Assembly (NCBI RefSeq): GCF_022201045.2 | Contig: NC_068558.1 | Location: forward strand, 1,054,001 to 1,118,000 | Source: Citrus sinensis | Taxonomy: Eukaryota > Streptophyta > Magnoliopsida > Sapindales > Rutaceae | Length of the DNA stretch: 64,000 nt | Direction: 5' to 3' | In this document: piece by piece, positions 18,059-25,198 of the stretch | How positions within the stretch are numbered: the first letter of the stretch is position 1 | Layout of the letters: each line of letters starts with the position of its first letter | Notes under the pieces: generated by a model | What the model was told of the DNA's origin: nothing | Database searches by the model: none | The model's input: only the letters and a program-made list of their open reading frames with translations | Position numbers and translations under genes: made by a program

Positions 18059-18067
18059 AAAAATAAA
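18059..18067. repeat. Left 9-bp target-site duplication of the MULE
   Basis: AAAAATAAA, identical to 25190-25198 beyond the right end. Nine bases is the diagnostic Mutator superfamily length; because the sequence is A-rich the match is weaker evidence than a complex one would be, but it abuts both inverted repeats exactly. Confidence 0.75.
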
Positions 18068-18148
18068 GGGAAATTTACAAAAATAACCATTAATATTTTA
18101 TTATTTTCGTAATTAACCCTCTCAATTTTTTTCTATCAACATTAGCCA
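18068..18148. repeat. Left terminal inverted repeat of the MULE
   Basis: 81 bases beginning GGGAAATTTACA and ending TATCAACATTAGCCA. Paired with 25109-25189; the outer 12 and the inner 15 bases match closely, with the middle diverged. Confidence 0.8.
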
Positions 18149-18389
18149 AACACAAGCCTTTCTTCCCAAATTACCATTCTTTACAGAACAAAACCAACAT
18201 TGTTTCTCCCATCTCGCCAAACCAAAAGCAGCTTTTCATTCTTGAATCATCAGCCAACGGCGACCGCAAAAGACAACTGTAAAAATGATATCCGATCATA
18301 ATCTATCCAGATTCAACACAAATCGACATCACTTACTGGTATGAATTATTTTTTGAACTTACTGAACTCAGTCGGGTGAATCTGAATCT

Positions 18390-18444
18390 GGCGACAGGCT
18401 GCCTATCGCAGCAAAACTTGGTGCGACAGGCTGCCTGTCGCACC
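18390..18444. repeat. Left subterminal palindromes of the MULE
   Basis: Two palindromes: an imperfect one at 18390-18412 (GGCGACAGGC arm) and a perfect one at 18420-18444 with 12-bp arms GGTGCGACAGGC around a single T. The same arm sequence recurs in the array near the right end. Confidence 0.85.
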
Positions 18445-18518
18445 CACTCTTGGAGATTTATTAAAATTGTATTATTTTAATTAGGACTGAAATAATTTTT
18501 TTTTTAATTTCAGGCTTA

Positions 18519-21154
18519 ATGGATTCAGTTGTACTTGAATTGTGTTACGATGGTTGGTGGGAGACATTAGAGAATGGCTGTATGGAGTACGTGAATGGTA
18601 AAAATCGAGCTTTTTTGGTTGGAAAAAATTACCTGTTTGATCAGTTATTGGCAAGAGTATACGAGGTGTTAAAAATAAATCCTAATGACTATAGTATCAC
18701 AATGAAGACAACTTTGAGGTCTAGTAACACATTATATCGTATATGTGCAATGCCCATGGATATATGTGATGATGAAATGGTGAGGGTTGTGTTGCATATG
18801 GCATCTGACGTAGCTAATTTTGGATGCATTCCTATATTCGTGACCACATCACCTCGAGTTCCGAGCGAAGGTATTGAGCCACATGTCGATACAGAAACTT
18901 CGTTTAGAGCAAATATGTCTGGCCCCGATAATGATGAAGAGGTGTTGCCAAGGACAATATCGCTGCAGCAATATTACTCTCCAATCCACGACAATTATGA
19001 CAACATTGATGATAATGGCGTTACGTTACAGGATGTTGGAGCAACGGTATTTCCAATAACAACGTCGTTGGAGCAACAATATTCTCCGTATCACAACAAT
19101 GATTTTCGGGACAATGATGATTTTCATAATGAGACAGAGGGGGATAATATTTGTGCAGAACCTTCTAATAATACAAGGCGGGGCACTCGTTTCAATAATG
19201 ATGGTGATGATGGAGGAGCCGGTCCTTCGAATGTTCCGTCGTTTCAGGATGAGGATGAGTGTGAAGACAATACTCCTGTGAATAACAGAGGCAATAGACC
19301 TATTCCTTCTATGGTTCGATCGAGAAGGAGAATTGACCCCCTTACAAGTCTTGCTCCAACTTTACCTTCGAACATGGTTGCTCCAAGCTTTGTTAGCAGT
19401 TGTGACTCAGATGATATCAGCGTGGGTAAGCTATTTGCTGAGAAGAATGAGCTTATATTACAACTACGCAAGGTGGCCTTTAGAGATAAGTTTGATTTCA
19501 AGATTGCACGGTCTACTCGACACGTTTCGAGGCTCACTGTTGTTCAGAATCATGTAAATGGCGTATTCGAGCAACTAGAAGTTCGAACGAGCAACATGTT
19601 CCTTGGGTGGTGAAGAGAATTGATAATGTACACACTTGTCATAATGAGGTATTGGTTGATGGACGTCATCGAGTAAGGAGCCGGGTTGTCGGTCTTATTA
19701 TCGCAGAAAAATATATTCAAGATAAGAGGATTTATACTCCCAATGACATAAGAGCAGATATGCAACAGGAATACGGTGTTCAGTTAACATACCAGCAGGC
19801 ATATAGGGCGAGAGAAGTTGGTCTTGAAATAGTACGCGGCAACCCTGCAGAGTCATACAACTTGCTCCCTAAATACTCTCACGTACTAACTACAGCGAAT
19901 GAGGGTACAGTCACTCACCTCGAGCAGGATGGAGATGGTAATTTCTTGTACTATTTTGTAGCACTCGGATCTTCCATCAAGGGGTTTATGCAGTACATCC
20001 GGCCTGTCATTGCTGTAGATGGTACTCATCTGAAGGGATTATATCGTGGAAGCATGTTCGTGGCAACATGTCTTGATGGTAACAATCAATTGTATCCGTT
20101 AGCCATTGGGATCATGGATTCAGAAAATAATGATGCTTGGGAATGGTTTATGATGAAGTTACATGGAGTGATTGGTGATAGACCTGAGTTGGTAATTATC
20201 TCTGATCGATGCACTGCCATAAGGGGAGCCGTTCTTAAAGTATTTCACAATGCAACTCATGGCGTTTGTTTTTACCACGTCAAAGGTAACATTAAGTCAC
20301 AATTTAGAATGTCCAAAGCTCTTTGGGATGAATTTGAACCTGCCTTTATTAATGCAGCAAAAGCATATGGCCACGAGGAATTTAAGAGACAACTTGAAGG
20401 GTTGTGGATGATCCACTCGGGTGCGGCTGATTACCTAGAAAATAATGTCGGTACGTGTAATTGGGCAAGGTCTCAGTTTCAAGGTAGGAGGTACAGCATT
20501 CTTACCACCAACATCGCGGAGAGTGTTAATGCTTTCATGAGGGAACCTCGAAAATTTCCTGTTACTCATCTTGTTGATCACTTCAGGAAAACATTGCAGC
20601 AATGGTTTTATGATAGAAAAATTGTGGCTGAATCAATGACTACTCGGCTAACAACATGGGCGGATGAAATAGTCACTGAGAGGAGAACTATAGCTGAAAG
20701 AATGATAGTTCGGCCGGTGTCTCCGCATCGCTTTCAAGTTATAGGCGGTGGGCTTAAGGAAAGGTTGGTTGACTTGCAAAAGAGAACTTGCTCCTGCAGA
20801 GTGTTTCAGCTTGATCAGCTTGTGTGTGCTCATGCAATTGCGGCGTGTCTAACACACCGGGTGGATTTTATTAACCTTTGCTCGGACTTTTACACTACAG
20901 AATCGTTGGCGATGGCTTATGCACAACCAGTGGAGCCAATTGGTGATGTGGCTGATTGGGAAGTTTCAGATGAAATTCAGGAGCTGTAGGTATACCCACC
21001 AGTTGAGGCACCGCCACCTGGACGTCGTAAAGAGCGCAGAATACCCTCGGCTGGCGAGGACGTTGACCGGCGAACTGTAAGATGCGGCCGGTGTCATGAA
21101 CTTGGCCATAATCATAAGCGATGTAAGAATCCTATTGCGTCGACTCGAAGTTAG
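18519..21154 (+). pseudogene. MURA-type MULE transposase, broken
   Basis: Cut-and-paste transposase of the Mutator superfamily. The N-terminal part (18519-19613 frame) has a PB1-like start, then a long acidic Asp/Asn-rich linker. The DNA-binding zinc module (CCSESCKWRIRAT...VHTCH) follows near 19530-19640, then the MULE catalytic domain: first Asp in VIAVDGTHLKG (about 20018), second in LVIISDRC, Glu in NIAESVNAF. A SWIM zinc finger (CSCRVF...CAHAIAAC) follows near 20790-20845. A zinc knuckle (CGRCHELGHNHKRC) lies near 21085-21126. Two lesions: a frameshift near 19520 just before CCSESC, and an in-frame TAG at 20987-20989, probably from CAG, which cuts off the knuckle. An acceptor-like TTTCAG at 18508-18513 just before the ATG suggests an intron in the leader. 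All catalytic residues remain. Confidence 0.88.
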
Positions 21155-21344
21155 TTGTATTTTGTGTGTTATTCGTTGGTTAAAACTATTATTATTTTTG
21201 TGTTACGTTGGTTAAAACTGTTATTGTTTTTTGTATTTCGTTGGTTAAAATTGTTATTATTCATAAAACTTTATTTTATTTTAAAGTTCAAAATGTGAGG
21301 CATTAAAATTATATAAATTTCAACATTGAAATTACTACATAGGT
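21155..21344. other. Junction between the two tail-to-tail MULE genes
   Basis: 190 bases, AT-rich, containing three diverged copies of a unit with TTCGTTGGTTAAAACTGTTATTAT (period about 40 bases, 21170-21265). Probably shared 3' regions. Confidence 0.5.
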
Positions 21345-24300
21345 CTACAATATAATATCGTCATTAAATATATCAACCGCAATCTTCTTTCTAAAGTACT
21401 CGACATGACTAGCGTTAAACTCCAACCTAAGCCTGAACATTAAATACATCGTAACCATCAATACAAAAACACCGCAATCGCCAGTGCCTCTTTCTTGTTG
21501 CGGCGCGCTCTTAACTGCGATAACTTTCCACGGGTCTTCACTCCGCAACTCAGGTCGTATATTGTAGAAGCCAACATATTCCAACCATCGAGGGAATATA
21601 ACTTCAAGTGGCTTGAATTTCAACTTGTACCTTTTGTCGTCGCGAAATGTGAGTAATGAGTCATAAATCCAGACTTTATTTTTCCGAAAGTCAACTCGTG
21701 CTAGTACCCAATGTGCGCCGTCCAAGTTAACAGGGATGAGTAACTGCATATAAAAATTAAAAAACATGTTCGTTATATATGAAATTGAAATACAACAAAG
21801 AAAAAACAACTCCTCGAATATTTTCAGTATAGAACATGTGAAATGTAATAAAATACATACCATATCGACATCCGTCATTGATTTTGACATTGTGTGCTGT
21901 CGCCCACAAAGATAACTATTCAAGCGGTCGTCGAATACCATTGAATCGACTGCACAATTCCCGTTATTCCATAACTGATTCAAGAACACCTAGTACATAG
22001 ATAACCAAGAAATGCATAAATTAATAAAACTTAAAGGCAATAATTAAAGAAATTAAATAGTATTTATAAGTTTTGTCGGCACGTTACCCAAAAAAATGTG
22101 TCCGTATGTGTGACACGTTGGAGTAAGGCATTTGGATACTGCCGTTGTTTCTCGCTAATCAAGCGGAGATACTCGTGAATATGCTGTAGAGAAACAGAAA
22201 TATTACGATTTTAAAAAAAAATTATACACAAATCCACAACAGTATACACCACGAGGAAAATATAAATACCTCATCGCCTAGCCATCCCATCGAAGCTGTC
22301 CCCAAAATTATTTGAAAGAATGACCGCGGGTGCTGGACGTTCCGGCGGACTCTGATATCACCAGTGAACCATCGATCAAACTCAGCAAACAAACTAGAGT
22401 CCTCCAATCCTCTCAGTGGATTTACATCCACACTCGTACTCATGTCAATCGCATGCTTCATGATTTGGGGTCGAGGTAACCTCCGGACGTTCTGTCCTCG
22501 CCTGACCGCGGCCAAACTTACTAACGCCCGGAGGCACCTCTGTGAACACCTGCACGCTCTCCCCACTAACATCCCCGTAGAAACTAACCAATGACGTGGG
22601 CGTAGACAAATTTTCATTGCCCACGACAGTATACACTCCATAGTCATCCGGGGCCTGTACAATCGCCAAAAAGAACATATTAAATAATTATCAAATTAAA
22701 AGTTAAACGAACATAATTATTTAATTTAAATTAGCTTACCGCATACGAGCGTGCAGTGGGAGAATCCTTATTTGGACGTTTAGAAAATGTGTCGATAAAG
22801 CCAACAACGGTTTCTTTAAAATCTTTTAATTCTGACTTATTTCATACACGTTACGATCAATCTTATCCAGCCGTCGTCGTACGTAATCATTAAACTGCTT
22901 TGTCCTCGACTAATACAAAAGAAAAAAATAAAACTTTAGAATAACAATAAAAAATAATAACAACCAAAGTGAAAAATATCGTATATTATTTATAACCTCA
23001 GAATCCCGTACGTCATCAGAGTTGTCTGTTTGCTGCGGGTGGTCATCAACAGCCACCTCATCCTCAAAAGTGTCATAACGCTGCTCTGGTATTGGGTTTG
23101 GTATGTCGTCATGATCGTCATGCTCGTCCGATTGTCTTGTAACCGACGGCATCGCGTTGATTGAGGGTTGGTGCTATATAAAGTATCATTTAAAATTACT
23201 AAATGAAAAGTCAAAAATTTCGATAAAAAAAATTTTTGTACTTACAGTATACCGACCTTATGAACCCAGTCTGGAATGCTTGGCAAGTAATCCTTCACAG
23301 AGAGCCAATATTTTCTGCTACTCTCCTTTGAATTTGGCTCAAGAGTTTGTAAAACGTCCGTCTGCCATAAATTTAATTGAAAAATTTAAGTAAGTATACC
23401 CAACTTAAATTTAGTAAAGTTAAAAAAATAAGTAATACATATTACTTACAAGACGAGATTCGTCGTTGAAGAACGAATAAACCTCCGCAAAGTTGATTCT
23501 CGAAGACGCCATAGGCTTCCATTGCAGAATGCGGGGAATCTTACTCTTCGTTTTGACGACCCATGTTGATGGTAACCCTCCGATTGCTTCATAAATCCAA
23601 GCCTACAACAACCAAAGTGAAAAATCAAATAAAACAACTATCAAATATTTAATACTATAAAACTTATTAATAAACAAAAAAAAGCACCTGCACCCCAGAC
23701 GTAAATCCGTAAAGATTGTATTTTTCAATATTATGATCTGGATTTTTCAACCGAGTCTTCTTAAATTTCTCGTCTTTTTCGAACAGTGCATTGTCAAGAC
23801 TCTCGTAAATCATTTCCCACGACAATAGACCCCATGGACGCTTTCGGAAGTACTGAATATCATCAACTTGGTCAAGCCAATCGAAATTAATTTGACAGTG
23901 ATTTTTTCTTGCATTTAGTACTCTGTCCGCAAAATAAAACAGCGCAATCTTTAATGCGTCCATATCGTCTATTTCCTCGAAATTCAACTCCTTAAATACG
24001 GCATCAAATTGCTTCACATTAATCTTACGATGCACACCACCAAAATACGTATTCCGTAGCCTCTGCTCCATTTCATCATTTTTTTCATTGGTATCAACAC
24101 CAAATGAAAGTCCAGTAACCAAGCACCATTCGACAATTGACAAGCGAATCAAATGCTTACCAATTTGAAACCATAACTGATCCTCACGGCTATCTTCTTC
24201 ATGGGCCACTTAACGCAGTAAAAGATTATGCAAAATTACCCCACTAAATGGAAAACTTCGACACTCCAAGAAATGCCCAAATATATCCTTTTTGAACATA

Positions 24301-24446
24301 CTCAACTGCCGCTTTGTTAATTTTTCCTCGATAGCTTTTACGACCGAAGATAACATACACATGCTCGAAATTCGACCAGGAAAGTGATCAGCATAACGAA
24401 AATACATCTTGCCTACTTCAATATCCGGTGATTCTGATTTCGCCAT
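21345..24446 (-). pseudogene. DUF1985 plus ULP1-type (C48) cysteine protease passenger gene, broken
   Basis: Transposon-borne relative of SUMO proteases. Exons as read (minus): 23688-24446, 23450-23602, 23246-23361, 22997-23173, 22740-22908, 22270-22654, 22088-22183, 21861-21989, 21345-21743. The first exon carries a DUF1985 domain (RLSIVEWCLVTGLSFG, RKRPWGLLSWE). The middle is acidic and variable. The last two hold the peptidase core with an apparently full triad: His in GAHWVLARVD, Asp in VWIYDSL, Cys in GTGDCGVFV. Lesions: an in-frame TAA just upstream of 24209 (HNLLLR-stop-VAHEED), and frameshifts in the exons at 22740-22908 and 22270-22654. Whether it ever acted on SUMO is unknown; in such elements the role of the ULP gene is unresolved. 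Confidence 0.8.
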
Positions 24447-24529
24447 GTATCTGTAATATTTATAAAATTATTACATTATATTTACAGAAATGAAAAATTA
24501 ACTCGTTAAAAAAAAAACTCTAATTTTTG

Positions 24530-24712
24530 GGTGCGACAGGCAAGCCTGTCGCTCCAAAAAACTGGTGCGACAGGCCCTCTCGCACCAAAAAATTGGTGCG
24601 CCAGCAAGCCGCTCGCACCAAAAAATTGGTGCGACAGCAAGCCTCTCGCACCAATCTGGTGCGTGAGGCTTGCTGTCGCACCAGATTTGGTGCGACCGCA
24701 GGCCGCGCCTGG
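24530..24712. repeat. Array of GC-rich palindromes near the MULE right end
   Basis: Five to six units of about 25 bases built on the arms GGTGCGACAGGC and GCCTGTCGCACC, separated by spacers such as AAAAAATT, period about 33 bases. Units at about 24530, 24565, 24595, 24628, 24658 and 24688. Two adjacent units (about 24628-24684) face each other and form one larger hairpin. The same palindrome occurs near the left end at 18420-18444. Chance open frames run through it on both strands. Confidence 0.85.
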
Positions 24713-25108
24713 GCGCGCGCTGCTGCCCAGCGATGGGCGCCGGCGCGCGCCCTGCCCCCCTCCCTTCCCACCCCCAAAATTAAGCGCAATCACTCCAAAA
24801 TCAAAAACAGTACTCCCAAACACCACCAACCACCACAAACATCATCACCACCATTATCAATCTCAAGCTATAACTATTATTATTCTAAAATCTCATTTTA
24901 AATTAATGAAAATAAGAAAAATGACTAACCTAGGTTTTGTTGAAGGTTGTGGATCGTAGATCGGATGCCGGTGAGAGATGGAGCCGCCGCCGACGAGGGT
25001 TGATGTCGCCGCCGATGATGGGAGTTGGATCGGTTTGGGAGAGATGAGAGAAAGGGAGTGTTGGGGAAGAGATGAGGGAGGGGTATTTTAGACTCAAATG
25101 TTGTTTAA

Positions 25109-25189
25109 TGGCTAATGTTGATAGAAATATTTTTGGGGGGTTAAGATGAAAAAAAGCAAAGTTTTTTTGGTTATTAGTGTAAATTTCCC
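25109..25189. repeat. Right terminal inverted repeat of the MULE
   Basis: 81 bases; on the minus strand begins GGGAAATTTACACTAATAAC and ends TATCAACATTAGCCA, pairing with 18068-18148. Confidence 0.8.
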
Positions 25190-25198
25190 AAAAATAAA
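25190..25198. repeat. Right 9-bp target-site duplication of the MULE
   Basis: AAAAATAAA, identical to 18059-18067. Confidence 0.75.

Follow-up and report, generated by a model that had tools for sequence, protein, structure and literature searches.

Dyad arrays in the predicted leader introns of a Citrus sinensis MULE, candidate target sites of a VANC-type DUF1985 protein

The element and its two arrays

The window (the whole stretch analyzed, 64,000 nucleotides of Citrus sinensis DNA; NC_068558.1, positions 1,054,001 to 1,118,000) contains a MULE of 7,122 bp, at positions 18068-25189, bounded by 9-bp duplications and carrying terminal repeats identical at 64 of 82 bp. A scan of the ends of the element turned up AAAAATAAA as the sole 9-bp target site duplication. 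The features of the locus are as follows:

18059..18067, unstranded: left target site duplication, AAAAATAAA
18068..25189, unstranded: MULE with ULP1 and DUF1985 ORFs (KIU/VANDAL-like), from terminal repeats, 9-bp duplication, and Pfam matches to MULE, SWIM, Peptidase_C48, and DUF1985
18339..18513, plus strand: predicted 5'-leader intron of the transposase gene, holding the left array (splice consensus only)
18381..18444, plus strand: left array, a degenerate unit (18381-18412) and a perfect dyad (18420-18444)
18519..20989, plus strand: MULE transposase ORFs (18519-19613 and 19607-20989; Pfam)
21345..21989, minus strand: ULP1 (C48) protease-domain ORF (Pfam C48, E=6.5e-22; PDB matches to SENP1/ULP1)
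23667..24209, minus strand: DUF1985 ORF, VANC21 homologue (Pfam, E=1.6e-19; PDB 9lnj)
24451..24929, minus strand: predicted 5'-leader intron of the DUF1985 gene, holding the right array (splice consensus only)
24530..24709, unstranded: right array, six dyad units of 21-26 bp each at a spacing of 30-34 bp
25190..25198, unstranded: right target site duplication, AAAAATAAA

The ULP1 and DUF1985 ORFs share the minus strand, and the MULE/SWIM transposase is on the plus strand; the Pfam search returned no match for the first transposase ORF (18519-19613). The 9-bp duplication and SWIM transposase are those of VANDAL MULEs, a group with absent or degenerate terminal inverted repeats; the repeats of the window element are imperfect yet recognizable. 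The ULP1-domain ORF, and perhaps these recognizable repeats, set it apart from VANDAL21/Hiun. A ULP1-like (C48) ORF that runs antisense to the transposase, as in the window, is found in the KIU/Kaonashi MULEs of Arabidopsis and in similar elements of melon, rice, and grapevine. CitMule (PMC4334395) is also a Citrus MULE with 9-bp duplications, but its description gives it a FAR1-type transposase, a five-exon transcript, and short degenerate terminal inverted repeats, and the term 'ULP' is absent from the main text of that paper. In the window copy (23667-24446) the DUF1985 ORF is only 180 aa long, and sibling open frames are often 266-288 aa; because the ORF is shorter than many sibling frames, the DUF1985 gene of this copy may be interrupted, with longer copies among its siblings.

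A reading of the sequence alone (hereafter, the sequence-only reading) had claimed five to six palindromic units in the right array, and six dyad units are indeed present, starting at 24530, 24564, 24595, 24628, 24658, and 24689 (successive spacings of 34, 31, 33, 30, and 31 bp). The same reading had claimed a perfect palindrome near both ends of the element, which holds on the left (18420-18444; 12-bp arms, 1-bp center) and fails on the right, where the units are imperfect dyads, the best of them (24530-24555) with one mismatch. The right array, which that reading placed next to the MULE right end and called subterminal, is subterminal and lies 480-659 bp inside that end; the left dyad lies 352 bp inside the left end. 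Across the window, GGTGCGACAGGC at up to two mismatches has 13 matches, compared with 1.02 expected (sd 1.05; maximum of 100 shuffles, 4). The surroundings, described in the sequence-only reading as AT-rich, include an 86% GC stretch with GCGCGCGC runs that adjoins the right array (at about 24690-24760), and comparable GC-rich stretches lie beside the right ends of L017, L022, L025, and L046.

Both arrays are predicted to sit in leader introns, the introns being called by consensus. The acceptor of the left intron sits just before the transposase ATG. Its donor, ACTG^GTATGA, is present at one mismatch or fewer in 20 of 21 copies, window included (not found in L061), and its acceptor, TTTCAG^GCTTAATGG, is present at two mismatches or fewer in 20 of 21 copies, window included (the sequence of L051 stops short). 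The right intron, before the DUF1985 gene, has the donor CCTAG^GTTAG and the acceptor ATTACAG^ATACATGG, the acceptor having been read directly from the sequence.

Occurrence and conservation of the dyad

Sibling copies were picked by end sequence alone: 20 copies taken from the best 40 of 689 left-end candidates, and therefore the closest relatives of the window element. The left array is present in 20/20 of these siblings, with 1-14 units. The first exact core lies at position 323-324 in 19 of the 20 and at position 351 in L064, and the 315 bp preceding the array are 92.7-99.0% identical to the window. Absence from sibling copies, which the sequence-only reading had named as grounds for giving up its proposal, is accordingly not observed for the left array. 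At the right end, presence is not universal: L046, with an 83% identical DUF1985, has no recognizable right array, and L042 has a single right-array unit that passed the dyad scan. Perfect 9-bp duplications flank four deletion derivatives. Both ends and the array are retained in L013 (1088 bp), L022 (2277 bp), and L028 (1180 bp); L009 (855 bp) retains the ends and only two partial units. Amplified units can be imperfect dyads, as L051 shows. In L017 (8563-9456), MULE left-end sequence forms a tandem repeat (period, about 446 bp), and no motif cluster is listed there.

In the genome searched (300 Mb, 11 contigs) the exact 12-mer has 871 matches (429+442), compared with 15 (7+8) for the reversed pattern. 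The number of places where both perfect 12-bp arms flank a center of 0-12 bp is 56, compared with 0 for the reversed pattern, and among the palindrome places listed every center is 0-4 bp. Twenty stretches of 10 kb from contig C1, which account for 49 of the 53 motif matches listed for that contig, were compared with the window MULE, and 20/20 matched it, also after masking of the window arrays. The coordinates of 39 dyad places were set against those of the 144 DUF1985 matches and 40 left ends that were listed. Nine sit 322-498 bp upstream of a listed DUF1985 domain, four, window included, sit 364-400 bp inside a listed left end, and three further places are no more than 9 kb from a listed feature. 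A random genome place was near a listed feature in 0.96% of trials. The masked MULE was matched by 10/10 places sampled from the 23 that remained. In the reverse check, on the DUF1985 matches of C1 and of the portion of C2 covered by the listing, the exact motif lies 306-416 bp upstream in 10 of 16, lies only 5.8-8.6 kb off and on the opposite side in 4 of 16, and is not found nearby in 2 of 16. We conclude that the dyad motif marks the MULE group of the window, in agreement with the tie to MULE ends proposed in the sequence-only reading. A dispersed satellite or promoter motif was considered and rejected: motif sites carry MULE sequence, and siblings carry the left array.

The form of the unit is taken from 176 units of the window, L009-L028, and L049-L068. 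In 166 of the 176, a 2- or 3-bp center separates 11-bp arms, and the conserved core is GCGACAGG-N2/3-CCTGTCGC. Core positions are on average 94.8% conserved (lowest, 89%), whereas the outer three positions of each arm (six in all) are 53-90% conserved. Two tests of covariation between the arms disagree. For arms of 12 nt, complementarity over 171 units comes to 0.792, compared with 0.788 in shuffles; 81 of 500 shuffles reach the observed value. With 11-nt arms it is 0.830 compared with 0.814 (reached by 0/1000), for distinct arm pairs 0.776 compared with 0.756 (reached by 3/1000), and there are 14 double changes compared with 7-8 in shuffles (11 and 32 of 1000). Both tests show a slight excess of G-T pairs. 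Because duplication has made the units kin of one another, a kinship that can raise apparent covariation, the case for hairpin covariation is weak, and it is mixed as well. The predicted RNA fold of the right array, minus strand, is strong (-130.9 kcal/mol, z -14.2), as is that of the left array (z -5.1), and Rfam contained nothing at gathering score for the array; the check by leader-RNA folding proposed in the sequence-only reading thus yields strong predicted folds together with covariation tests that conflict. Preservation of CpG was considered as a sign of hypomethylation and set aside: CpG o/e is 0.67-1.25 in the arrays, where it is uninformative because the motif fixes it, and 0.69-1.35 in the rest of the element, at or above the 0.64 of the window, a weak sign.

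The DUF1985 protein and divergent relatives

As a lone query the window DUF1985 ORF matches one PDB sequence, VANC21 (9lnj, 9lnk), at E=0.003; a profile of nine window-like DUF1985 members has VANC21 as its sole PDB match at E=1.9e-8, and a wider profile of 14 members matches it at E=5.6e-13. These profile matches indicate that the window DUF1985 domain is homologous to VANC21. Alignment-free structure prediction of the ORF gave a mean pLDDT of 38.8, which is useless. At C4:19391872-19401900, seven equal-scoring DUF1985 matches recur at an exact spacing of 1,607 bp, which makes this a tandemly repeated DUF1985-bearing unit.

VANC21 is described as the anti-silencing factor of Arabidopsis VANDAL21, DUF1985 being present in VANC proteins, and as binding a short motif whose arrays occupy introns and sequence upstream of the transposase gene, with unit numbers that differ between copies; VANC6 motifs differ from those of VANC21, so that families differ in motif (Hosaka 2017, PMC5735166). 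RdDM is reported to target the same regions as the VANC motif arrays (Sasaki 2023, PMC10398659). ULP1-carrying VANCs (KIU) recognize motifs of their own group according to a 2026 review (PMC13317346) that cites Sasaki 2022.

We scanned for dyads upstream of 20 DUF1985 domains picked for divergence, with 40 shuffles each. In the window, L029, L039, and L044, the dyads are both more numerous and longer than in any of the 40 shuffles, and length alone lies beyond every shuffle in L038, L045, and, marginally, L030; at 14 other divergent loci the upstream dyads do not exceed shuffles. L044, upstream of a DUF1985 gene, and L080, in a transposase leader 7 kb away, carry GTGCGACGGG/GTGCGACAGG-type arrays with the half-site TTGTGCGACGGG or TTGTGCGACAGG; the two are presumably one element, its right end not located. 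L079, a left end, carries a GTGAGACAGG-type array (half-site GTGAGACAGGC), and L027, the right end of the same element, carries, with its family, GCGAGATGCGC and GCGCGACATGC. L045 has a GCGCGACGAG-type array (half-site CGCGCGACGAG), and L029 a GTCGTGTAAAG-type array. A MULE end and transposase are found at L079 and L080; L029 and L045 are known as DUF1985 loci only. By eye, the leaders of L079, L080, and L029 show arrays in the same setting as the window.

Counted across families, the half-sites, all chosen after the arrays had been inspected, are largely separate. Those of families F2, F3, and F4 (the last being the family of L079/L027) have 0 occurrences in 32 window-family stretches, and the F5 9-mer has 2. 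The window half-site has 0 occurrences in F2, F3, F5, and seven array-less loci, 4 in five F4 right ends, 2 in L020 plus L027, and 3 in L021. The motif is thus family-enriched and different in relatives, with half-sites defined post hoc and some window-type half-sites shared by F4 and L021. The F4 element L079/L027 has one dyad motif at its left end and others at its right, an arrangement not readily accounted for by a single binding protein per family. A further DUF1985 family (L030, L032-L036, L047) is about 89-98% alike upstream, with few or no dyads there, and has 24-27% identity to the window DUF1985 domain where aligned; it may be another TE or a host family.

Candidate target sites and alternative readings

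According to the reading that we consider probable, from the analysis as a whole, the arrays are target sites, in dyad form, of the element's own VANC/KIU-type anti-silencing factor. The factor would be a VANC-type DUF1985 protein, perhaps with a fused ULP1 protease domain (KIU type), that would bind the tandem units in the predicted leader introns of the transposase and DUF1985 genes; the dyad form of a unit, with its paired half-sites (11-bp arms, 2-3 bp apart), makes a dimer the likely binding form. Bound factor would remove or block DNA methylation at the arrays and across the element; transposase and VANC would then be expressed, and both autonomous copies and deletion derivatives would become mobile. 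Tandem duplication would expand and contract the units, and co-evolution would shift the half-site as the DUF1985 protein of each MULE family diverges.

The likeness to the VANC21 arrays of VANDAL21/Hiun, as described in PMC5735166, extends to short motifs placed in tandem within introns and in the region upstream of the transposase gene (for the window, in non-coding parts that are introns by consensus prediction), to specificity for a MULE family, to rapid gain and loss of units, and to a VANC-family (DUF1985) protein encoded by the element, here the VANC21 homologue. The difference lies in the unit. VANC21 recognizes a 9-bp motif, YAGTATTAY, repeated in the same orientation, whereas the window arrays consist of dyads of two half-sites of unrelated sequence; because the units are dyads, the half-site occurs on both strands, and the word 'palindrome' is absent from the main text of PMC5735166. 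Because the motifs are not in one orientation, and because binding is inferred, we class the arrays as a variant and not as a plain VANC target array. The best reading, on this comparison, is a known kind of feature, VANC target arrays, in a dyad form that differs from the motif arrays of VANC21. The sequence-only reading, which knew of no description of the exact motif, stands in this respect: none was found in the literature searched, and papers containing the 12-mer, as judged from titles and the starts of abstracts, do not concern plant transposons, although the kind of feature is already known (PMC5735166).

The sequence-only reading had proposed a role as binding sites for transposase or a host factor, as a nick or cruciform signal, or as a leader hairpin. 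A bound cis site is retained as the best reading, and transposase, a nick or cruciform signal, and an RNA hairpin are less likely than a VANC-like DUF1985 protein. Subterminal protein-binding sites are known from CACTA and Ac elements. It is unlikely that the arrays are such sites, bound by transposase or a second transposition protein and helping to assemble the transposition complex. The subterminal position at both ends, the presence of the left array in all siblings examined, and its at least partial retention in the four deletion derivatives fit that function, as do the TnpA protein of Spm and MURA, element proteins linked to methylation loss in PMC10398659. However, instead of occupying the terminal repeats, the arrays fall in predicted leader introns at a distance of about 350-660 bp from the ends; they range from 1 to 14 units; where a DUF1985 domain is listed, sites fall 306-498 bp upstream of it; and the right array can be absent altogether (L046).

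It is very unlikely that the arrays are a neutral minisatellite, born in the leader of an ancestral MULE and hitch-hiking with the element. Array length does turn over fast among near-identical copies, as such a repeat would, but the left array is lost in 0/20 of the siblings drawn from the best 40 of 689 candidates, the core is better conserved than most outer bases, and divergent loci have dyads of other sequence in the same setting, four loci (window, L029, L039, L044) exceeding their 40 shuffles. Hairpins in RNA or cruciform form, through which folded leader transcripts would act on splicing, translation, or small-RNA production, we regard as the most improbable of the alternatives. The strong predicted folds favor them, as do the excess complementarity and double changes of the 11-nt arms and, slightly, the G-T excess; against them stand the lack of any excess with 12-nt arms, the kinship of duplicated units, the concentration of variation in the outer arm bases, the imperfect amplified units of L051, the lack of an Rfam match at gathering score, and the predicted removal of the arrays from the transcript by splicing.

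The target-site reading can be extended, more tentatively, beyond the window family. It is conceivable, although we would not favor it on balance, that ULP1-bearing VANCs bind dyad arrays as dimers, and that at least three MULE families of this one genome (those of the window, L044/L080, and L027/L079), together with the DUF1985 loci L029 and L045, rewrote the half-site while keeping its dyad symmetry and its place. In that case the families would supply a natural code by which DUF1985 proteins recognize DNA, along with matched protein-target pairs for sequence-specific demethylation.

Anti-silencing by VANC proteins has been worked out in Arabidopsis. If the arrays are VANC targets, the system uses dimer-type sites in another plant genome, and several protein-target pairs of graded divergence would be on offer. 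How a DUF1985 protein chooses its motif, and how a transposon escapes silencing without global damage, would then become directly testable.
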